In this document: piece by piece, positions 1 through 9,574 of the stretch
How the letters are laid out: each line of letters begins with the position of its first letter
Numbering within the stretch: position 1 is the stretch's first letter
From: Pseudomonadota bacterium
GTDB taxonomy: Bacteria; Desulfobacterota; Desulfobulbia; Desulfobulbales; SURF-16
NCBI GenBank assembly: GCA_018897105.1
Contig: JAHILF010000053.1
Coordinates: forward strand, 1-62,055
Reading direction: 5' to 3'
DNA: 62,055 bases
Program-made: the position numbers and the translations under genes
Notes under the pieces: generated by a model
Told to the model about the DNA's origin: nothing
The model's input: the letters and a program-made list of their open reading frames with translations, nothing else
Database searches by the model: none

Positions 1-21
1 AGAAAAACTGACTACACTCGT

Positions 22-92
22 CGTCACCCCGGCGAAGGCCGGGGTCCAGAATTGTCGTAACTACCTGGATTCCGGCCTTCGCCGGAATGACG
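22..92. repeat. Inverted repeat of the CGTCATTCC/GAAGGCCGG type
   Basis: Two 28-bp arms (22-49 and 65-92) are imperfect reverse complements separated by 15 bp, each starting or ending in CGTCA/TGACG and holding a GGCGAAGGCC core. Related but decayed sequence occurs at 9767-9839 and 13169-13206, always between genes. This is a dispersed intergenic hairpin repeat; no gene is seen in 1-176. Confidence 0.75.
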
Positions 93-176
93 AACCTGGG
101 CTCAGGCAACCGGCGAAAAGGCTTAAGTTAATGACATTGACTTAAAAATGAAAAGTGGCTGATCGAGGCCGCCCCT

Positions 177-362
177 TTTCTCCACCGGGAGAGAGCGCAA
201 CGGGGCTGTCGCTCTGATGAGATTTCTCCCTCCCTGTGCATGGCGGCTGTGGACAACAGCTTCGTCGCCCATTATGGCGGAACTTATTATCAATGAGTGG
301 TCATGACCCGGCCACCAGGAATGCGTCCGAGGCGACATCTAGTCAGGCATAAAGAAATACCG
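177..362 (+). pseudogene. Decayed 3' fragment of a third radical SAM/SPASM peptide maturase
   Basis: This stretch aligns with the SPASM-coding part of the maturase at 8279-9574, roughly bases 9200-9373. Shared blocks include TCCCTGTGCATGG, GGCCACCAGGA and GTCAGGCAT, in the same order and spacing. One frame reads SLCMAAVDNSFVAHYGG, against SLCMVDVDNSFVVNYDG in the intact protein, and then hits a stop where the SPASM cysteine should be. Reading on needs frameshifts. It is therefore a relic of a further upstream copy of the cassette, whose remainder is lost or lies left of the window. It ends just before the binding-protein gene of the next cassette, as expected for head-to-tail duplication. Confidence 0.8.
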
Positions 363-370
363 TTTTCTCA

Positions 371-1279
371 TCATGGCTCTTCTACAGTAATATCAAGCTG
401 CAATTTTCTGACAACAGTGGGATTGACAATGGTCTTCACCCTGGAGATGTCCGTGGGAGGCACGGAGCTCACCGGTGTGCCCCGCAGGATGCGGGCAGCC
501 ATGACAGCCGCCTGCTCTCCCATGGCCTCCAGATCAAAGGTGACGACAATGGCGGCCCCGCTTTTCAGATATTTTTGCGAAAAGGCCAGCACCGGCACCT
601 TGTTTTTGAAGGAAAAAAGAAAATAGCTCTCCAGGATCTGCGGGTTGGTAACAATGAGATCGGGCAGTAGCCAGATGAGGTCCACCTTGTCGTGCAACTC
701 TTCCAGCAGAGACGGCACCTCCCTGGTGCTCTGGGCGTGTAGGGCGACAAATTGCAGATCAGGCCTCCCCCGGCGGGCCTGCTGGATATCCATGGCACTG
801 TGCGCCGTGTTGTAGATGACGCCGATGCGCCGGACCTGGGGCAGCAGCCGGGTTAATTCGCAAAACTGCAGCGTGGCCGGAATGTCCAGATTGACGCCGG
901 TGATATTGTCCCGGTCTTCGATGATAATCTCCGGAGCAACCACCAGCAGAAAGACGATGGGGATCTCGCTGATGTCGCGCACGGCAAGCAGGGCGTTGCG
1001 GCCCAGGGTCAGAATAAGATCCGGCCGCGCCTCAAGTATCTGCTGCTGGACAGCGGATTTAATCGGGTTTTCACTGAGATCGATTTCTTGAAAACGATGG
1101 GGTTCGATGGATTTGACCCCATGGGCGGGCAGGAGATTGACAAATTTTTCCGCGAACGACCGGACTACCTGCTCCATGGGTGTTTCATTGCCGCTTTTCA
1201 CCACCACGATCTCATAGCCTGAGGCCGTACGAGCCCCGGCCAGCAGCACGAGCATGATGATGATAAGTGATTGTTTCAT
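371..1279 (-). CDS. Periplasmic ABC-type substrate-binding protein, cassette 1
   Basis: The 302-residue protein begins with a signal peptide (MKQSLIIIMLVLLAGARTASG) followed by an ABC_sub_bind-type fold (PF04392 family by pattern). Markers are PDLILTLGRNALLAV, EIPIVFLLVVAP, NITGVNLDIPA and VRRIGVIYN. The ATG at 1279 was chosen because the signal peptide starts there; the open frame continues upstream but adds an unlikely leader. No permease or ATPase is nearby, so the protein may bind a ligand delivered through the divergent TonB receptor, or act as a sensor. Its promoter must lie in the 209 bp shared with that receptor gene. A near-identical but frameshifted copy lies at 5032-5990. The ligand cannot be read from sequence; a link to the modified peptide is inference. 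Confidence 0.85.
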   Translation of the reverse strand: MKQSLIIIMLVLLAGARTASGYEIVVVKSGNETPMEQVVRSFAEKFVNLLPAHGVKSIEPHRFQEIDLSENPIKSAVQQQILEARPDLILTLGRNALLAVRDISEIPIVFLLVVAPEIIIEDRDNITGVNLDIPATLQFCELTRLLPQVRRIGVIYNTAHSAMDIQQARRGRPDLQFVALHAQSTREVPSLLEELHDKVDLIWLLPDLIVTNPQILESYFLFSFKNKVPVLAFSQKYLKSGAAIVVTFDLEAMGEQAAVMAARILRGTPVSSVPPTDISRVKTIVNPTVVRKLQLDITVEEP

Positions 1280-1488
1280 ATGATGTGGTATTTTTTTACC
1301 TGACACACTAGCAGAACATTTCCCAGCCTGCAACATCAATACGAAAAAACAACCATTATTTATCTGCCATTGCCTTGTTATTACCTCATTTATCAATGGA
1401 CATACCATGTCGCCGTATGGTAACATCACCTTGTTTTTTCATGACAACGTGATGCTTCTTTTTCAATTTAGCATTTCCACAGAGCAAA
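1280..1488. promoter_or_regulatory. Divergent promoter region with conserved dyad, cassette 1
   Basis: The 209 bp between the divergent binding-protein and receptor genes are conserved with 5991-6208 of cassette 2, far more than non-coding DNA needs to be. Conserved blocks include CAGCCTGCAACATCAAT, TTATCAATGGAC and CAGAGCAAAATG at the receptor start. At 1401-1427 a dyad CCATGTCGCCGTATGG is followed by TAACATC; cassette 2 has CCATATCGCCTTATGG then TAACATC. This is a candidate operator controlling both directions. No clear -35/-10 pair could be assigned. Confidence 0.5.
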
Positions 1489-3420
1489 ATGGCCAAAAAG
1501 CTGAAGACTATCTTTTTTCACACGACTTTTTCCGCCCTGCTGACAGTGACCTTTTCCTCCCAGCCCCTGCTGGCTGCCGACGAACCGCTGTCAGAAAACA
1601 ATGATCCCCTGTCTCTCTACTTTGATGCGGACGCCACCGAGGAAACGACCACCCGCGCCCCCAAACCCCTGTCACAGGTGGCGGAAAACGTCAGCATCAT
1701 CACCGCGGATGAGATCAATGCCATGCATGCCCATACCCTGGCCGAGGTGCTGGACCGGCAGGCCGGCATGTTTATGGAATTCTCCGGCAGGGATTTTTTC
1801 GGTGATAGCAAGACGAGGATTCTGGGTACCCGGAAGCAACATGCTCTGTATCTGCTGGACGGGGTGCGCATCAACCTCAATTCAAGCGGCGCGGCCATCA
1901 CCAACTTCATTCCGATCACTATCATCAAGCGCATCGAGATCATCAAGGGGCCGGCCTCCTCCACCTGGGGCTCTTCTTTAGGCGGGGTGGTCAATATCAT
2001 TACCAAGGATACGGGCAAAACCGCCACCTCAAACGGCAGCGTCAGGGCAAGCTTCGGCGAGAGGGACAGCCGTGATGTATCGGCCGAGGTGACGGGTGGA
2101 GGCGAAAAATTCGGTTATTATCTCTCAGGCTCCAACATCGACTCCAATGGCCTCAAGGTCGACCGCTACGCCGAGCGGGATACGGCCTACGGCAAGATGG
2201 AGGTGCAACTGCCCCATAGCTCCACCCTCACCGCCACCGCCGGCTACAGCGACCCTTTCTATAAATCCCTGAACTGGAGCGATGCCTGGGATATTACCGG
2301 TCTCAATCTCTACGAGGAGGTCGATCACCGCAACTTCTGGGGCACCCTGTTTTTTGACACGGAACTGACCGAGCGGCTGGGCCTGCATCTCGCGGTCCAG
2401 CGCTTTGAAAATGACTTTGCTCAAGACAAATTTTCTCTGGGCACCGGATTGGGTGGGGCCAGGGGAGATCTCCTCTATCATCAGCAATGGGATGACACCT
2501 ATACCGCGTTTGCCAGCCGTCTCACCTGGGCGGAGGAGAGTTTCACCGCCAATGTCGGTTTTGAGTCAAGCCGCAGCAAAATGGACTATGAAAGCAGCCC
2601 GGGCAGCTATTTCGGCGGGCCCGCCGACTACACCGCCGACCCGGAACGGGAGGAGCGGCGCGGTGTCTATGCCAACGCCACCTTTGTCCTGGGCCACTTC
2701 GCCCTGACGCCTGGCCTGCGCTATGACTATAACGGCAACTCGGAGGAGTTCGTCAGCCCCTCCCTGGGCGCTACCTACCAGCTGGCCGAGGACATCCTGT
2801 TGCGCGCTTTGATTGCCAAGGGGTTTTCCGCCCCCTATCTGTCCGCCTCTGCCCTTTCTCCGGACCTCAAGCCTGAAACCATCTGGGCCTACCAGGCCGG
2901 GGTGGAAACGGGCCGTATCCCCTATGTCCAGCTCAAATGCACCCTCTTCCACCTGAAGGTGGACGATGCCTGGCATACCACAACTCCCTGGACCAACGCC
3001 GGCACCATCCGCTGGAACGGGGTGGAGCTTGAGGCCCAGACCGTGGAGTTTCATGGCCTAAGGCTCACCAGCAATTTCACCTTTGTCACCGAGGACAGCA
3101 TGGGGGACGGCGCCACCGACCGCGAAAACGATGAAACCTATACCGCCAATGTCATAGTGGACTACACCAATCACGAACAGGGCTGGCGAGCCCAACTGGC
3201 GGGTCATTATTACTGGATGAATGAAGACGTAATAATCGAGAAGCCGCATTATGACGATTTCCTGTGGGACGCCCTGCTCAGCAAGGATCTCACCCTAGCT
3301 ACCGTGCCTGCCGAGGTCTATGTCAAGACCCATAATATCTTTAACGCCAGCCAGTACTATGACTTTGAATACCCCAACCCGGACAGGTGGGTGGAGGCGG
3401 GCATTGTAGTCAAATTTTAG
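1489..3420 (+). CDS. TonB-dependent outer membrane receptor, cassette 1
   Basis: The 643-residue receptor has a signal peptide (about residues 1-29, cleaved after LLAA). A plug domain follows (QVAENVSIITADEI to about residue 180, with IKGPASSTWGSSLGGVVNI), then a 22-strand-type barrel ending in a terminal phenylalanine (VVKF), as outer membrane proteins do. It resembles the BtuB/siderophore receptor class and would import a ligand with TonB energy. The start is supported by the context CAGAGCAAAATG, identical in the second cassette. The peptide and maturase genes follow on the same strand. Compared with the receptor at 6209-8041 the N-terminus and plug are closely similar but the barrel is much more divergent, suggesting different ligands. 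Confidence 0.93.
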   Translation: MAKKLKTIFFHTTFSALLTVTFSSQPLLAADEPLSENNDPLSLYFDADATEETTTRAPKPLSQVAENVSIITADEINAMHAHTLAEVLDRQAGMFMEFSGRDFFGDSKTRILGTRKQHALYLLDGVRINLNSSGAAITNFIPITIIKRIEIIKGPASSTWGSSLGGVVNIITKDTGKTATSNGSVRASFGERDSRDVSAEVTGGGEKFGYYLSGSNIDSNGLKVDRYAERDTAYGKMEVQLPHSSTLTATAGYSDPFYKSLNWSDAWDITGLNLYEEVDHRNFWGTLFFDTELTERLGLHLAVQRFENDFAQDKFSLGTGLGGARGDLLYHQQWDDTYTAFASRLTWAEESFTANVGFESSRSKMDYESSPGSYFGGPADYTADPEREERRGVYANATFVLGHFALTPGLRYDYNGNSEEFVSPSLGATYQLAEDILLRALIAKGFSAPYLSASALSPDLKPETIWAYQAGVETGRIPYVQLKCTLFHLKVDDAWHTTTPWTNAGTIRWNGVELEAQTVEFHGLRLTSNFTFVTEDSMGDGATDRENDETYTANVIVDYTNHEQGWRAQLAGHYYWMNEDVIIEKPHYDDFLWDALLSKDLTLATVPAEVYVKTHNIFNASQYYDFEYPNPDRWVEAGIVVKF

Positions 3421-3506
3421 TGTGCCGTCCCGTCTTTCCGTGGGTTACTTGAGCAAAGCTGCAAGGCTGTCATTCAATAAACCTTTCACAAATAAAGGAG
3501 GGAAAC

Positions 3507-3605
3507 ATGAAAAAAAGGATCAAAATCCTTAATAAAGGCAAAAAGGCGCAGGAGGTGGCTTACACGATGGGATGCTGCTCAGGAGTGCCTTCAACAGCGA
3601 AATGA
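3507..3605 (+). CDS. Putative radical-SAM-modified (RiPP-like) precursor peptide, cassette 1
   Basis: This 32-residue ORF starts behind a strong Shine-Dalgarno (AGGAGGG, 4 nt spacer). It has a Lys-rich leader (MKKRIKILNKGKK) and then AYTMGCCSGVPSTAK, with adjacent cysteines at 23-24. The matching ORF of cassette 2 keeps the pattern K-I-x(2-3)-L-x-K-x-K-K-x(4)-A-x(2)-M-x-C-C. Position directly before a SPASM maturase, size, a conserved leader and a variable tail after Cys-Cys are the hallmarks of a RiPP precursor. The modification and final product are unknown. A stem-loop terminator directly downstream suggests the peptide is made in excess of the maturase. Reading the TGA stop as selenocysteine was considered and rejected. 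Confidence 0.75.
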   Translation: MKKRIKILNKGKKAQEVAYTMGCCSGVPSTAK

Positions 3606-3629
3606 TACAAGTGTTTGTTCACCTTTTCG

Positions 3630-3655
3630 GGAGAGCTTCGGCTCTCCATTTTTTT
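3630..3655 (+). terminator. UUCG-loop stem-loop with T-run between peptide and maturase
   Basis: A perfect 7-bp stem GGAGAGC/GCTCTCC closes on a TTCG tetraloop and is followed by A and seven T. It has the form of an intrinsic terminator and sits 24 bp after the peptide stop and 15 bp before the maturase start. Partial read-through would give much peptide mRNA and little maturase mRNA. A similar hairpin with a weaker T-run stands at the same place in cassette 2. Confidence 0.8.
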
Positions 3656-3669
3656 GCCTGGAGCAAGCC

Positions 3670-4992
3670 ATGCAGTTAACCCCCTATCAGGTTGTATGCC
3701 GTCACCGCACCATCCCCGGCCAGGTCCTGCTCTTTGCCACCAAGACCGGGGCCTTGATCCTGCTGGCCGAAGAGGATTTTGCCGCCCTGGAGAAGGGCCA
3801 GGCCGTGGACGAGGAGATCGAGCAGCTCAGCGAAATTGGCTTTCTGGTTGCCGATGCCGACACGGAACAACGGCAGGTGATGCACTACATGGATGACATC
3901 AACCGGCTCAACCCCAACCTGACCCTGGCCCTGGTGCTGGGCATGGAGTGCAACTTTGCCTGCCGCTACTGTTTCGAAGGCAGCCAGAAGGGCGGCAAGG
4001 CCATGGATGATGCCACGGCGGACCAGCTGGTCACCTTTATCAAACAACGCTTCGGGCCGGGCAAAAAAAAACTGCTGCTACAGATCTACGGCGGCGAACC
4101 CCTGCTCTACCGCAAACGCCTGATTTCGCTTGCCCGGCAATTGAAACCCATTGTCGAGGCGCGAGGGGGCGAACTCAAGATCGATCTGGTGTCCAACGGC
4201 TCCCTGCTCACCGCGCAGGTGGTGGAGGAACTCAACGCCTGGGGCCTGGACGGGGTCAAGGTGACCCTCGACGGCCTGCCGGACAATCACAACCATTTCC
4301 GGCCCTTCAAATCAGGCCGGGAGAGTTTTGCGGTTATTGTCCGCAACCTAGCGAATGTCTGTGGACTCACCAAAATCCGCCTGGGCGGCAACTATACCAA
4401 TGAAACGTACACACAATTTGGCCCCCTGCTTGACCATTTGTCCGAACAGGGCCTGACCCCGGACAAGGTGGAGCTGGTCAACTTCAACATCGTCCTCAAG
4501 GTAAACGACAAGCTCACCGCCAATGAATACCATGGCGGCTGCGCCACCATCAACGAGCCCTGGCTGCGGGAGGCGTCGCTCCATGTGCGGGAGGAGGTCT
4601 ACCGCCGGGGCTACACCGTGCCGGAACTGGGGCCCCAGCCCTGCGCCGTGGAGGTGGATGACGCCTTTACCGTCCATTACGACGGCAGCCTGTACAAATG
4701 CGTTACCTGGGTGGGCCACCGGCAGTTCCGGATAGGCGATATCTGGCAGGGGGTGGATGAAAAATACCGGCAAACCCATCATCTCTTACACTGGCAGAAA
4801 GAGGGGAAATGCCAGGCCTGTGTGTACCTGCCGCTCTGCTTCGGCGGCTGCCGGTTCATGGCCTATCAGCGCGATGGCCACATGGGCAAGGTGGATTGCC
4901 GCAAGTCCTTCCTGGACGCCACCCTGGAGGCCATGCTGCTGCAGGACCTACGCTACAAATATGGCTATGAATTATTCTACAGAGAACCCTAA
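3670..4992 (+). CDS. Radical SAM/SPASM peptide maturase, cassette 1
   Basis: The 440-residue protein has an N-terminal segment (about 1-65: TKTGALILLAEEDFAAL, EIGFLV) like the recognition region at the front of many peptide maturases. The radical SAM motif C94-x3-C98-x2-C101 binds the SAM-cleaving 4Fe-4S cluster, and FGGEP-like IYGGEP follows. The C-terminus is a complete SPASM domain: CAVEVDD, GSLYKC, then C-x2-C-x5-C-x3-C (CQACVYLPLCFGGC) and a final DC, holding two auxiliary clusters. Overall form matches the SPASM maturases annotated as geopeptide or selenobiotic type (from memory, not searched). The start is supported by TGGAGC 7 nt upstream. The expected substrate is the Cys-Cys peptide at 3507-3605; the chemistry (for example a thioether or other side-chain crosslink) is not readable. 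Confidence 0.9.
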   Translation: MQLTPYQVVCRHRTIPGQVLLFATKTGALILLAEEDFAALEKGQAVDEEIEQLSEIGFLVADADTEQRQVMHYMDDINRLNPNLTLALVLGMECNFACRYCFEGSQKGGKAMDDATADQLVTFIKQRFGPGKKKLLLQIYGGEPLLYRKRLISLARQLKPIVEARGGELKIDLVSNGSLLTAQVVEELNAWGLDGVKVTLDGLPDNHNHFRPFKSGRESFAVIVRNLANVCGLTKIRLGGNYTNETYTQFGPLLDHLSEQGLTPDKVELVNFNIVLKVNDKLTANEYHGGCATINEPWLREASLHVREEVYRRGYTVPELGPQPCAVEVDDAFTVHYDGSLYKCVTWVGHRQFRIGDIWQGVDEKYRQTHHLLHWQKEGKCQACVYLPLCFGGCRFMAYQRDGHMGKVDCRKSFLDATLEAMLLQDLRYKYGYELFYREP

Positions 4993-5031
4993 ATAAGGGG
5001 TTGAGAGCGGGACGCAGAGAAACAGCAGAGA

Positions 5032-5990
5032 TTACTGAGACTTCGTCGGTCGCGGCACACAGTATTCACCAACAACCTTTTCATCAAGACACTTCTCCGC
5101 AAACTCAAGCTGCAATTTTCTGGCGACAGTGGGATTGATAATGGTTTTCACCCTGTCGATATCTGCCGGGAGCACGGCACTCACCGGAGTGCCCAGGAGG
5201 ATGCGGGCAGCCATGACAGCCGCCTGGTCTCCCATGGCCTCCAGGTCAAAAGTGACCACAATGGCCGCCCCGCTTTTTAGATATTTTTCCGAAAAGGCCA
5301 GCACCGGCACCTTGTCCCGGAAGGAAAAAAGAATGTAGCTCTCCAGGACCTGCGGGTTGGTAACGGTGATATCGAGCAGCAGCCAGATGAGGTCCACCTT
5401 GCCGTGCAACTCTTCCAGCAGGGCCGGCACCTCCCTGGTGCTCTGGGCGTTTAGAGCGACAAATTGCAGATCCGGCCTCTCCCGGCGGGCCTGCTGGATA
5501 TCCATGGCGCTGTGCGCCGTGTTGTAGATAACGCCGATGCGCCTGACCTGGGGCAGCAGCCGGGCCAATTCACCAAATTGCAAGCTGGCCGGAATACCCA
5601 GATTAATGCCGGTGATATTGTCCCGGTCTTCGATGATAATCTCCGGGGCAACCACCAGCAGAAAGACGATGGGGATCTCGCGGATGTCGCGCACGGCAAG
5701 CAGGGCGTTGCGGCCCAGGGTCAGAATAAGATCCGACCGCGCCTCAAGTATCTGCTGCTGGACAGCGGATTTAATGGGGTTTTTGCTGAGATCGATTTCA
5801 TGAAAACGATAGGGCTCGACGGTCTTGCCCCCGCAGGCGGGCAGGAGATTGACAAGTTTTCCGCGAAGGCCCGGACCACCTGATCCATGGGCCTTTCATT
5901 GCCACTTTTCACCACCATAATGTCATAGGCCAGGCCCGTACGAGCCCCGGCGAGCAGTATGAGCATGATGAGGATAAGCGATTTTTTCAT
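5032..5990 (-). pseudogene. Substrate-binding protein, cassette 2, single-base frameshift
   Basis: This is the second copy of the binding protein at 371-1279, with signal peptide MKKSLILIMLILLAGARTG starting at 5990. Around 5853-5865 (plus strand) cassette 1 reads GACAAATTTTTCCGCG while this copy reads GACAAGTTTTCCGCG, one base shorter in the T-run. After about residue 48 the frame changes; the rest of the protein is intact in the other frame down to 5032. This may be a young pseudogene, a homopolymer sequencing error, or phase-variable slippage. The rest keeps good codon structure (NITGINLGIPA, VRRIGVIYN), so loss is recent at most. Confidence 0.85.
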
Positions 5991-6208
5991 TATGATGCGG
6001 TATTTTTTTCCCTGACACATTAACAGAACATTTACCAGCCTGCAACATCAATAATACTTAAAATAAATAACTACATTTAATACTCCATTCCCTCATTATC
6101 ACATCACTTATCAATGGACTTGCCATATCGCCTTATGGTAACATCGGTTTGTTTTTTTCATATTGGCGAGACGCATCTTTTTCAATTTAACATTGCCTGC
6201 AGAGCAAA
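5991..6208. promoter_or_regulatory. Divergent promoter region with conserved dyad, cassette 2
   Basis: The 218 bp counterpart of 1280-1488 lies between the frameshifted binding-protein gene and the second receptor. The dyad CCATATCGCCTTATGG with TAACATC (6123-6145), the TTATCAATGGAC block and the CAGAGCAAAATG start context are all retained. Conservation across duplicated cassettes suggests shared regulation of both copies. Confidence 0.5.
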
Positions 6209-8041
6209 ATGACCAAAAAACTGACAAATATCTTTTTTCGCGCAACTTTTTCCGCCCTCCTGCTGGCAGTGACCTTTTCCTCCCCCCTGCTGGCCGCCGA
6301 GGACCCCCTGGCGGAAAACAATGATCCCCTGTCCATGTACTTTGACGCGGACGCCACCGAGCAAACAACCACCCGCGTAGCCAAGCCCCTCTCTCAGGTG
6401 GCGGAAAACGTCAGCATCATCACCGCAGAAGAGATCGAGCGGATGAACGCCCACAGCCTGGACGAGGTGCTAAACCGCATAAACGGCCTCTACGTTGGGT
6501 TCAACGGCAGGGATTTTAACACTTCCATAAGCTCTGTTCACATCCAGGATTCAGACTACGAACAAGTCCTGGTGCTGGTTGACGGCATCCGCTGGAATTG
6601 GGATCTAGACGGGATGGCGGTGACCAATACCATTCCGGTGGAGATCATTGAGCGTATCGAGGTAATCAAGGGCCCGGCCTCTTCCATCTGGGGCTCATCC
6701 CTGGGCGGGGTGGTCAATATCATCACCAAAGCAACCGGTAAAACAAGCCGCCCCCACGGCACCCTGTACGGCTCTTACGGAGAAGCAAACAGCCAGCACT
6801 ATTCCGGCAGCGTGGACGGCAAGCTGGGGACAGCCGGCTATTTCCTCAGCGTGACAAGCCAGAATTCCGACGGCATCATCCTTAACCGCGAATACGATAA
6901 CGAAAGCGTCTACGGCAAAATCGATTTCACCCTGCCCCACAACACCACCCTGACCCTGCTTGCCGGCCAGGCCAACCCGGAGAACGATCTGGGCGACCTA
7001 TGGAACCAATGGGGAAACTACATCATTGAGCACCGCGATGTCTGGGCATCGGCCGCCCTGGACACCTCCCTGACGAATAACATCGACCTCCATATTGACG
7101 GCTATCGCAAGACACAGAAATTCATATATCCAACCTTTTCGCTTGACTATGAACCTGAGACAACGGGACTCTCCTCCCGCTTGACCGCACGGCTCGACAG
7201 CCACACCATTGTCATGGGCGCGGAAATCGACCGGGTGGAAACGGAAAGCTCTGATTCTACTTACGATGACTTAAAAGAAGAAAACTGGGGCGTCTATATC
7301 AACGATACCTTCACCGTCGGTCCTTGTGCAGTTACGCCCGGCATCCGCTATGACCATCTTTCCCTCACTGACAACGTCCTCTCCCCCAGCCTGGGTATGA
7401 CCTGGCAATATTCGGAGAAGACCCTTTTCAGGGCGCTGTTCTCCCAAGGCTTCAGAAAACCTTATCTGGTTGATGCGGAAGATACCAATCTCGATCCGGA
7501 AAAAGTTACCTCCTACCAGGTCGGTTTTGAGACCCATGTTGTGCCCTCCCTGCTGATCAAGGCCTCCCTTTTTGAACATAACCTCAAAGATAAATGGTTA
7601 TTTGATTATATCAACTGGAGATATGATATTCTCGAGAAGGTAAGGCACTACGGCTACGAGTTGGAGGTGGCAACCGATCCTTTTTACCATTTCTCACTGG
7701 ATGCCGGCATTGACTATACCTATACCGACTACTACGGCTATATGGACAACGATGACATCTATGGCGTTAAGCTGACCCTGTTGTATGACAACCCGGAGCT
7801 TTTCACCGCCGAACTTTTCAGCCGCTACCAGTGGCTCAATGAAGTGAAGAGTGAACCCGGCTCGCAAGACGGGACCATGATTTGGGACTTCAATATCATG
7901 AAAAAATTCCAGGTCTACCCGGCTACGCGCATGGATGTGTTCATGAGCGCCCATAATCTTTTTAACGGCGCCGATTACTGGAACCCAGCTTATCCCAACG
8001 CCCGCCGCTGGGTGGAGGCAGGCCTTCGGTTCCATTTTTAA
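6209..8041 (+). CDS. TonB-dependent outer membrane receptor, cassette 2
   Basis: The 610-residue receptor has a signal peptide (cleavage after LLAA), the same N-terminal motif as its cassette-1 paralogue (NNDPLSMYFDADATE, PLSQVAENVSIITAEEI), and a plug with IKGPASSIWGSSLGGVVNI. The barrel ends in FHF. It is an importer in the outer membrane. Similarity to the first receptor is very high through about residue 100 and across the plug, then falls in the barrel, including the probable surface loops. This pattern is expected if the duplicated cassettes have diverged to recognise different ligands. The peptide gene follows after 71 bp. Confidence 0.93.
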   Translation: MTKKLTNIFFRATFSALLLAVTFSSPLLAAEDPLAENNDPLSMYFDADATEQTTTRVAKPLSQVAENVSIITAEEIERMNAHSLDEVLNRINGLYVGFNGRDFNTSISSVHIQDSDYEQVLVLVDGIRWNWDLDGMAVTNTIPVEIIERIEVIKGPASSIWGSSLGGVVNIITKATGKTSRPHGTLYGSYGEANSQHYSGSVDGKLGTAGYFLSVTSQNSDGIILNREYDNESVYGKIDFTLPHNTTLTLLAGQANPENDLGDLWNQWGNYIIEHRDVWASAALDTSLTNNIDLHIDGYRKTQKFIYPTFSLDYEPETTGLSSRLTARLDSHTIVMGAEIDRVETESSDSTYDDLKEENWGVYINDTFTVGPCAVTPGIRYDHLSLTDNVLSPSLGMTWQYSEKTLFRALFSQGFRKPYLVDAEDTNLDPEKVTSYQVGFETHVVPSLLIKASLFEHNLKDKWLFDYINWRYDILEKVRHYGYELEVATDPFYHFSLDAGIDYTYTDYYGYMDNDDIYGVKLTLLYDNPELFTAELFSRYQWLNEVKSEPGSQDGTMIWDFNIMKKFQVYPATRMDVFMSAHNLFNGADYWNPAYPNARRWVEAGLRFHF

Positions 8042-8112
8042 ACCCGTTTGCCCGGTCATGGCGAAAAGAGAGGGGAAGCGGAGACAAGAACAACCTGACA
8101 TGAGGAGATGAG

Positions 8113-8220
8113 ATGAAAACCCAAAAAATTGTCGTGCTGACCAAGGCAAAAAAACCGGAGCAACTGGCAAACTCCATGGCCTGCTGTAAAGTCGGGCCTG
8201 GACCTGCAAGCTCAGCATAA
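8113..8220 (+). CDS. Putative radical-SAM-modified (RiPP-like) precursor peptide, cassette 2
   Basis: This 35-residue ORF has Shine-Dalgarno GAGGAG 5 nt before its ATG. The leader is MKTQKIVVLTKAKK, then ANSMACCKVGPGPASSA with cysteines at 24-25. It shares the leader lysines, Leu, Ala, Met and the Cys-Cys pair with the cassette-1 peptide, while the tail differs (KVGPGPASSA against SGVPSTAK). Both tails are small-residue rich with Pro and Ser. It lies between a receptor and a SPASM maturase and ends in TAA. Function as a modified peptide, possibly a secreted metal- or cofactor-binding compound re-imported by the receptor, is inference from context. Confidence 0.75.
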   Translation: MKTQKIVVLTKAKKPEQLANSMACCKVGPGPASSA

Positions 8221-8230
8221 TAACCAATGT

Positions 8231-8254
8231 GGGGAGCGCCTGCTCCCCTTCTCA
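8231..8254 (+). terminator. Stem-loop between peptide and maturase, cassette 2
   Basis: A 7-bp stem GGGGAGC/GCTCCCC with a 4-nt loop is followed by TTCTCATT. It stands where cassette 1 has its UUCG terminator. The T-run is interrupted, so it may be a weak terminator or an mRNA processing/stability element. Its retention with a changed sequence suggests selection for structure. Confidence 0.55.
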
Positions 8255-8278
8255 TTGCCATTCTTCCTTTATTCCTCC

Positions 8279-9574
8279 ATGCAGCTTTCCCATTACGCCC
8301 GTATCTTTTCCTGGCCAAACAACCCTGCCCTTCGCCTTGTCTACTCCACCCGCACCGGCGCGGTTGCCCTGGTGCCGCCGGAGGATCTGGCGGCCATTGA
8401 AAGCGGCACCATTGATCCCGAATCAGCCGCAGCATTGGTGGAACTCGGGCTGCTGGTCCCGGACCGCAATCAGGAAAAGAAGGACGCGCTTGACCTGGTG
8501 AAAGAGTTGAACCGTCTGCGCACGGCGATGAACGTGTCGGTTGTTGTCAACCTGCACTGCAACTTCCGCTGCCGCTACTGCTTTGAGGGCAGCCAGAAAG
8601 GCAGAAGCTTCATGGGGACCAACACGGCTGATCAGCTCATCGCCTTTATCAAAAAGCGGTTCCAGCCAGGCATGACCAGGCTGACCCTGGACTTTTTCGG
8701 CGGCGAACCGCTGCTCTCCATGGGGCTGATCAAAAAAATCGCAGGCCCACTCAAACCGTTTATCGAATCCAGGGGGGCCCAGTTTGAAATCACCCTGGTC
8801 ACCAACGGCTCACTGCTGACTGCAAAAAACGTAAGTTCACTGCTGCCAATGGGGCTCAAGCGGGCCAAAGTCACCGTTGACGGGCCGCCGGAAGTCCACA
8901 ACTTCTTCCGGCCCTATCGCTCGGGCCGCCCCTCATTTGCCACCATCCTGAAAAATCTGGGGGCGTGCGCGGAACTCATCAAGCTTGCCATCAACGGCAA
9001 CTTCACCAGGGACAATTATCACAGGTTTCCCGTACTTTTTGCTTATCTCACCGACTACGGCCTCACCCCAAAGAGGGTCCACAACCTGAGCTTTGCAACG
9101 GTCATGCAGGTAAACGACGGATTCTCCACGGGCTTTTGCGGCGGCTGCGCCACCTGCAATGAGGAGTGGCTGAGTGATGCCGTCCCATTTCTGCGCGGGG
9201 AGATTCTGCAACGGGGTTATAGCACTGATCAGATTGCCCCATCCCTGTGCATGGTGGATGTGGATAACAGCTTTGTCGTCAATTATGACGGCAGCCTTTA
9301 CAAGTGCGTGGCCCTGATCGGCCACCAGGAGTATGCCTGCGGCGATGTCTGGTCAGGCATGAAGGATTACCGGCAGCAGTATCACCTGGACCATTGGCAG
9401 AAAGAGGGAAAATGCCGGGAGTGTGTTTACCTGCAGCTCTGCTTCGGCGGCTGCCGATACATGGCCTATCAGCGGGACGGCCACATGGCAGAGGTGGACT
9501 GCTGGCAGCCGTTTCTGGACGCCACCCTGGAGGCCACGCTGCTGCAGGATGTGCGCTACGGGCATTCGGCCTGA
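8279..9574 (+). CDS. Radical SAM/SPASM peptide maturase, cassette 2
   Basis: The 431-residue paralogue of 3670-4992 starts at MQLSHYARIF, matching MQLTPYQVV in the first copy; an upstream TTG is possible but adds an unshared leader. Radical SAM cysteines are C94, C98, C101 (CNFRCRYC) and the SPASM cysteines run CMVDVDN, GSLYKC, CRECVYLQLCFGGC, DC. FFGGEPL follows the cluster motif. The presumed substrate is the peptide at 8113-8220. No good Shine-Dalgarno precedes the ATG, so translation may be weak, which fits a catalytic amount of enzyme. A fragment of a third homologue is at 177-362. Confidence 0.9.
   Translation: MQLSHYARIFSWPNNPALRLVYSTRTGAVALVPPEDLAAIESGTIDPESAAALVELGLLVPDRNQEKKDALDLVKELNRLRTAMNVSVVVNLHCNFRCRYCFEGSQKGRSFMGTNTADQLIAFIKKRFQPGMTRLTLDFFGGEPLLSMGLIKKIAGPLKPFIESRGAQFEITLVTNGSLLTAKNVSSLLPMGLKRAKVTVDGPPEVHNFFRPYRSGRPSFATILKNLGACAELIKLAINGNFTRDNYHRFPVLFAYLTDYGLTPKRVHNLSFATVMQVNDGFSTGFCGGCATCNEEWLSDAVPFLRGEILQRGYSTDQIAPSLCMVDVDNSFVVNYDGSLYKCVALIGHQEYACGDVWSGMKDYRQQYHLDHWQKEGKCRECVYLQLCFGGCRYMAYQRDGHMAEVDCWQPFLDATLEATLLQDVRYGHSA

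Follow-up and report, generated by a model that had tools for sequence, protein, structure and literature searches.

Organization of the locus

The window, i.e. the complete stretch of 62,055 nucleotides that was analysed, contains two head-to-tail units, each consisting of a gene for a periplasmic binding protein (SBP) on the minus strand and of genes for a TonB-dependent receptor, a precursor peptide and a radical SAM/SPASM maturase on the plus strand. A preliminary description of this DNA had named both units and their protein families, and comparisons with Pfam and NCBIfam confirmed the assignments (PF04392 in case of the binding protein). The duplication that it reported holds for gene order and strands; the copies are, however, mosaic, SBP 2 is frameshifted, and a third, decayed unit (unit 0) exists besides. 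The features are as follows:

120–363, plus strand: decayed maturase piece (unit 0), best match maturase 2, in-frame stops inside
371–1279, minus strand: SBP 1, PF04392 periplasmic binding protein with signal-peptide-like N-terminus, putative start
1280–1488, no strand: divergent SBP/TonB control region, copy 1, inverted repeat CCATGTCGCCGTATGG at 1405–1420
1489–3420, plus strand: TonB-dependent receptor 1, Plug and TonB barrel (Pfam)
3507–3605, plus strand: precursor peptide 1, 32 aa, ending in MGCCSGVPSTAK, ribosome-binding site present
3630–3656, plus strand: terminator-like hairpin and T run between peptide 1 and maturase 1
3670–4992, plus strand: geopeptide-type radical SAM/SPASM maturase 1, TIGR04280 482 bits
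5032–5990, minus strand: SBP 2, frameshifted, frames split near 5694–5724
5991–6208, no strand: divergent control region, copy 2, inverted repeat CCATATCGCCTTATGG at 6123–6138
6209–8041, plus strand: TonB-dependent receptor 2, Plug and TonB barrel (Pfam)
8113–8220, plus strand: precursor peptide 2, 35 aa, ending in MACCKVGPGPASSA, ribosome-binding site present
8231–8248, plus strand: terminator-like hairpin between peptide 2 and maturase 2
8279–9574, plus strand: geopeptide-type radical SAM/SPASM maturase 2, TIGR04280 502 bits (scanned from 8255)

SBP 1 probably starts with the ATG at 1279 rather than with the GTG at 1429, and position 8279 is the probable start of maturase 2. The score against PF04392 (ABC_sub_bind) was 112 bits for SBP 1 and 96 bits for the larger part of SBP 2. 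The full precursors read MKKRIKILNKGKKAQEVAYTMGCCSGVPSTAK (peptide 1, 3507–3605) and MKTQKIVVLTKAKKPEQLANSMACCKVGPGPASSA (peptide 2, 8113–8220). The inverted repeat common to both control regions has one further match, which is unrelated; because the copies are too few, naming it an operator was judged premature. A sigma-54 promoter pattern gave 36 matches at up to two mismatches versus 40 expected, i.e. no signal.

Elsewhere in the same genome, contig C154 carries a third SBP copy (79% identical). The 3' end of this copy and the 5' end of a histidine kinase gene overlap, and next come genes for a regulator-kinase and for an NtrC-type sigma-54 regulator. This is the sole kinase found adjoining a close SBP copy in this genome. 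At the opposite end of the C154 stretch, a receptor piece matching receptor 2 is followed by the 121-bp repeat that opens the window; the two contigs overlap exactly over these 121 bp, but the overlap is repeat sequence. We infer that they join, because a receptor piece lies on one side and a maturase piece on the other; since the repeat has many copies, the join is likely, short of proof. The decayed third unit (120–363) probably continues on C154. The repeat itself (window 1–121) has inverted-repeat character and occurs at 100% identity over 119–121 bases in at least 40 places of the genome, many of them at contig ends; it resembles a small mobile element, or one of the REP type, and would account for breaks in the assembly.

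The maturase family

Both maturases score above the cut-off of the NCBIfam model TIGR04280, "geopeptide radical SAM maturase" (482 and 502 versus 400 bits). They also match Radical_SAM (Pfam) and the SPASM model TIGR04085 (54 and 53 bits, cut-off 27). An alignment of 15 sequences contains the radical SAM motif CxxxCxxC with invariant cysteines 94, 98 and 101 and eight later cysteine columns. The Pfam scan of the six cassette proteins matched no other maturase type. The nearest solved structure by sequence profile is PDB 5wgg (E 1.9e-33), which we take to be CteB, the thioether-forming maturase of the ranthipeptide SCIFF.

The phylum of the window was sampled with 395 genomes, of which 31 carry a maturase above the cut-off, with 37 matches in total; in eight of the 31, two matches reach E 1e-60 or lower. 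A second genome with tandem maturase-receptor units, SBP and kinase lying between them, is G098 (L042, 8995–18868). A search of named genome contigs with a single sequence gave no match; a search with an alignment contributed the eleven loci L080–L090, and Nitrospirota are among the named relatives.

Precursor peptides

Precursor genes were searched with a motif of two hydrophobic residues, G or A, CC and a short tail, preceded by a ribosome-binding site. A match was found in 38 of 46 geopeptide loci (0.73 Mb), whereas 41 control loci (0.51 Mb) gave two unrelated matches. In the remaining eight geopeptide loci, a looser scan located a peptide in L053, L083 and L088, and inspection by eye one in L082 and L084; motif scan and looser reading found none in L064, L066 and L090, all of which have a contig end upstream. 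The 45 listed peptides, for which CC was part of the search, are 27–45 aa long, carry a leader motif like (E)IxVLDEG and continue for 7–15 residues after the CC; each has two or three cysteines. The peptide gene precedes the maturase gene, and in L057, L062 and L080 a transporter gene separates the two; in L058 the peptide gene adjoins the receptor. A precursor in L084 (9709–9948) has a long Lys/Ala/Thr-rich extension ahead of the usual Cys-Cys end. NCBIfam models matched neither window peptide. A short gene with a leader and a conserved core beside the maturase is what is expected of a RiPP precursor, and the peptide genes correspond to it.

The spacer between peptide and maturase contains a terminator-like hairpin with a T run in 30 of 38 cases, compared with 32 of 1520 single-base shuffles. 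Such a hairpin would fit the production of more peptide than enzyme.

Linkage with receptor, binding protein and kinase

For the analysis of gene neighbourhoods, 48 maturases at 46 loci were considered: the window, 34 loci of the sampled genomes (L038–L071) and L080–L090, with L042 and the window counted twice. All 37 matches above the cut-off are included; partial matches on G200:C89 and G244:C31 were left out, although the latter stretch holds maturase, receptor, kinase, SBP and peptide. The second L042 maturase was scored with the SBP and kinase of the neighbouring unit, as its own SBP lies outside the stretch. Our own profiles were applied with thresholds of 430 (maturase), 250 (receptor), 70 (SBP) and 100 bits (kinase), which were set after the scores had been seen.

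A TonB receptor lies within 4 kb of 43 of the 48 maturases, and an SBP within 9 kb of 43 of the 48. L057, L064, L066 and L090 miss both, L082 misses the receptor and L050 the SBP; each of these loci has a contig end at most 2.4 kb upstream. In L089, from the isolate Geotalea toluenoxydans, the reading frame of the receptor is split. Gene order and strand differ between lineages, and the linkage is kept. The association of a RiPP-type precursor and a radical SAM/SPASM maturase with receptor and binding protein is thus recurrent in Desulfobacterota, the group in which the preliminary description had proposed to look for it. A maturase that regularly occurs without these partners, named there as the pattern that would speak against the cassette, was not observed within the TIGR04280 family.

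A kinase gene directly follows the nearest SBP for 33 of the 43 maturases with an SBP, which makes a kinase the commonest partner of the binding protein; HATPase_c was found in all six SBP-adjacent kinases scanned. Some of the ten other cases are contig ends. In L045, an aconitase gene stands behind the SBP, in L044 the kinase follows the second SBP, and in the window's genome the third SBP copy. For comparison, 41 SBPs lying away from a maturase, all chosen by design from genomes with a maturase, were inspected: a kinase follows in 15 of 41, so that kinase adjacency is not specific to maturase loci; a receptor scoring at least 250 bits is present within 4 kb in three, and one of at least 60 bits in 17.

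The coupling is not universal beyond the TIGR04280 family, as follows from eight weaker maturase relatives (278–351 bits; L072–L077, L091, L092): none has an SBP, and one has a receptor under the 250-bit rule. G163, G081 and G048, also below the cut-off, were left out of this set. On a laxer reading of scores, L074, L076, L077 and L092 have a receptor match within 2 kb, three of them low-scoring. The weaker maturases in L073 (2964–4268), L091 (10001–11317) and L092 (5260–6558) are accompanied by Cys-Cys peptides, and their stretches contain no match to our SBP profile; Omnitrophota and Auribacterota are among the weaker relatives with such peptides.

Neighbouring transporters and the metallophore alternative

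The preliminary description had stated that no exporter belongs to the cassette. This is correct for the window; among relatives, however, a gene of the major facilitator superfamily (MFS) adjoins the peptide or the maturase at seven loci. It shares the strand of the maturase in L058 and L070; in L057, L062, L064, L066 and L080 the two are encoded on different strands. Three MFS genes were scanned and matched MFS_1 and MFS_3. The homologue in the window's genome is only 25% identical and stands unlinked on contig C44. Most loci showed no exporter in their surroundings. The gene families found in at least four of 47 sources, identified from their representatives (families found in three sources only were left out), comprise receptor, maturase, SBP, kinase/regulator, MFS and two sets judged to be antisense frames; neither a protease nor an ABC permease was seen among them.

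These findings bear on the function of the peptide, for which two options had been proposed at the outset: re-import with a bound metal or cofactor, or a signal. The signal is now favoured. In the first option, which we consider rather improbable and which is the main rival, an exported Cys-Cys peptide would bind a metal or cofactor, receptor and SBP would recover the complex, and the kinase would regulate the operon according to load; some siderophore systems do sense their own uptake. The linkage of the peptide with TonB receptor and binding protein, the Cys-Cys core of the 45 listed peptides (CC being part of the search) and the MFS_3 similarity of a transporter adjoining seven loci all suit such a metallophore with its own sensor. 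It is weakened by the lack of an ABC permease among the common families and by the kinases, which take the place behind the nearest SBP in most cases, and Rfam at gathering scores matched no family anywhere in the window.

A self-made, peptide-derived cofactor like PQQ, scavenged by a dedicated receptor and sensor, would show the same combination of enzyme and receptor, PQQ and PqqU being a known pairing of a radical SAM/SPASM enzyme with a TonB receptor. As the common feature of the peptides is Cys-Cys (part of the search) and not Glu/Tyr, and as the families present in at least four sources include no dependent enzyme, we regard this explanation as highly improbable.

Divergence of the units

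A comparison of units 1 and 2 at the DNA level gave 81–94% identity for SBP, control region and receptor start; for receptor barrel, peptide and most of the maturase, identity is about 43–69% (mostly 43–60%), with peaks of 71% in the plug and of 66% and 69% in the maturase, the end of which reaches 83%. Receptors 1 and 2 are 45% identical, and maturases 1 and 2 are 49% identical. Receptor 1 and maturase 1 have their nearest counterparts in G301 (59% and 71%) and G088 (55% and 65%), receptor 2 and maturase 2 in G145 (67% and 61%). The peptides sort likewise: CCSGVPSTAK of unit 1 goes with CCSGKPSTAR (G301) and CCAGGPTASK (G088), and CCKVGPGP of unit 2 with CCKTGPAPLN (G145). The SBPs of units 0–2 are 79–86% identical among themselves and follow the species. 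This pattern suggests that receptor barrel, peptide and maturase diverge together, as specificity types would.

Distance correlations were calculated for 29 loci in which receptor, maturase, SBP and kinase are all present (L042, L067 and L089 were dropped); in such data, co-adaptation and linkage are inseparable. The values were highest for receptor-maturase (0.61) and SBP-kinase (0.60), followed by maturase-kinase (0.52), receptor-kinase (0.50), maturase-SBP (0.47) and receptor-SBP (0.40), the last dropping to 0.17 once the maturase is removed. We infer from these values two co-inherited parts, a variable one made up of peptide, maturase and receptor, and a steadier one made up of SBP and kinase; the co-divergence of receptor and maturase may stem in part from linkage. 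As the SBPs do not diverge with the peptide type, their binding must be generic or not directed at the peptide itself.

The binding protein

With the SBP profile, matches of at least 300 bits in the 395 genomes were restricted to genomes with a maturase above the cut-off and to G350, G160 and G124; in these three, the contig ends at most 0.5 kb from the SBP, the kinase lies on the other side, and in G160 the start of a receptor is visible. Below 300 bits, there are receptor-SBP sets with no maturase nearby (e.g. G031, G068, G085, G049) and SBPs with no receptor in G011. Sets of receptor, SBP and in part kinase that lack a maturase mean that the module can sense other things. Locus L079 (1851–8127) of the window's genome comprises a receptor, an NtrC-type regulator, a kinase and an SBP, and has no maturase or matching peptide; it may be a module of this type that serves a different ligand.

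Module types of this kind raise the possibility that receptor, SBP and kinase sense an unrelated compound, a nutrient or the product of a competitor, and that the peptide is merely an output, e.g. a redox factor or an antimicrobial; antimicrobial activity is common among radical SAM RiPPs. Against this, the receptor barrel co-diverges with peptide and maturase, and the SBP follows the species, for which reason we consider such a division of roles unlikely.

In a tree of 42 geopeptide and 39 control SBP rows, from which short pieces had been dropped, 39 of the 42 geopeptide rows and three control rows form one group, whose support of 90/92 is below the method's mark of 95/80. The other three geopeptide rows, one from L058 and two from L044, fall together with the controls L163, L179 and L183. 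The structure model of the SBP (pLDDT 88) matches the fold of CD0873 (6hnj; Z 27.5, RMSD 3.3 for 274 aligned residues), and gave Z 23.1 and RMSD 7.0 with 3lkv, and Z 21.9 and RMSD 6.8 with L-Trp-bound 3lft. The match to LuxP of LuxP-LuxQ (Z 14.4, RMSD 5.4, 257 aligned) ranks level with those to many unrelated binding proteins of type I. The kinase model has a mean pLDDT of 74, and the fold search with it covered only the kinase core.

A proposed peptide-sensing system

The explanation that we favour, and to which we assign about an even chance, is a peptide-sensing system: a modified Cys-Cys peptide would be re-imported via the TonB receptor and reported by binding protein and kinase. Sensing is preferred because of the linkage, the adjacency of SBP and kinase, and the co-divergence of receptor, peptide and maturase. 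A short precursor (usually 27–45 aa) with a Cys-Cys core would be modified by the adjacent radical SAM/SPASM enzyme, presumably by a thioether-type crosslink; trimming and export would be left to unlinked functions or, in some lineages, to the MFS transporter. The mature peptide, or a complex carried by it, could then re-enter the periplasm via its cognate receptor and be bound by the PF04392 protein, and the kinase, encoded behind the SBP, would signal to its response regulators. Ligand, export and chemistry of the peptide are conjectural parts of the scheme. In the window's genome, two receptor/peptide/maturase types occur with near-identical binding proteins. More tentatively, and with less than even confidence, we propose a Gram-negative family of peptide pheromones, in which each radical-SAM-modified Cys-Cys peptide is re-imported by its own TonB receptor and read by the SBP/kinase pair, exchangeable receptor-peptide-maturase types feeding one shared sensor in an agr-like manner.

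Several observations count against sensing. No protease and mostly no exporter was seen in the neighbourhood, and at five of the seven MFS loci transporter and maturase are encoded on different strands; Cys-Cys peptides also occur beside weaker maturase relatives that have no SBP; control SBPs, too, can adjoin a kinase, and receptor-SBP sets occur without a maturase. In addition, the predicted similarity to the LuxP fold does not set LuxP apart from other binding proteins.

Comparison with known systems

TIGR04280 (hypoth_equivalog) covers both maturases, and the window peptides have the same CC plan as those beside higher-scoring members; the entry names no receptor, binding protein or kinase. 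A literature search, which most subscription journals lay outside, found no paper with the word geopeptide or TIGR04280 and no description of a receptor-peptide-maturase-SBP-kinase system; the available parts of PMC4289311, PMC12997753 and PMC10352776 contain no matching system. Kinase, third unit and specificity pattern are new beyond the first reading of this DNA.

The maturation enzymes of methanobactin are MbnB/MbnC; among the six cassette proteins (Pfam), the maturase of each window unit is a radical SAM enzyme instead. SCIFF with CteB (5wgg) is the nearest solved relative by sequence profile, and a table in the available part of PMC8326336 lists SCIFF with quorum sensing. SCIFF is defined by six cysteines in 45 residues, whereas all 45 listed peptides have two or three, those of the window two vicinal ones, and their hosts possess a TonB receptor and an SBP-kinase pair.

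The itf RiPP cluster of Bacteroides likewise combines a radical SAM enzyme with a TonB-dependent transporter, ItfF; it differs by YcaO amidine chemistry and an ABC/C39 exporter, and the part of the report at hand (PMC11002830) describes no SBP-kinase pair. In LuxP-LuxQ, too, the gene of a periplasmic binding protein is paired with that of a membrane kinase, as seen here for 33 of the 43 maturases with an SBP (15 of 41 among control SBPs), and the predicted fold of the binding protein is similar to LuxP; our binding protein, however, belongs to PF04392 and not to the LuxP family, a dedicated TonB receptor and a RiPP are added, and the SBP-kinase complex is putative.

In the specificity groups of staphylococcal agr, peptide, processing enzyme and receptor vary together. 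Peptide, maturase and receptor of the window likewise vary together between better conserved flanks, with the difference that the varying receptor is an outer-membrane importer. The proposal provides this uncharacterised RiPP family with a direct functional test, as each component, from the peptide and its receptor to the binding protein and the kinase, has been named. If it is true, the import of a self-made signal through the outer membrane, with paired specificity types in one genome, would constitute a Gram-negative RiPP language comparable to the peptide pheromones of Gram-positive bacteria.
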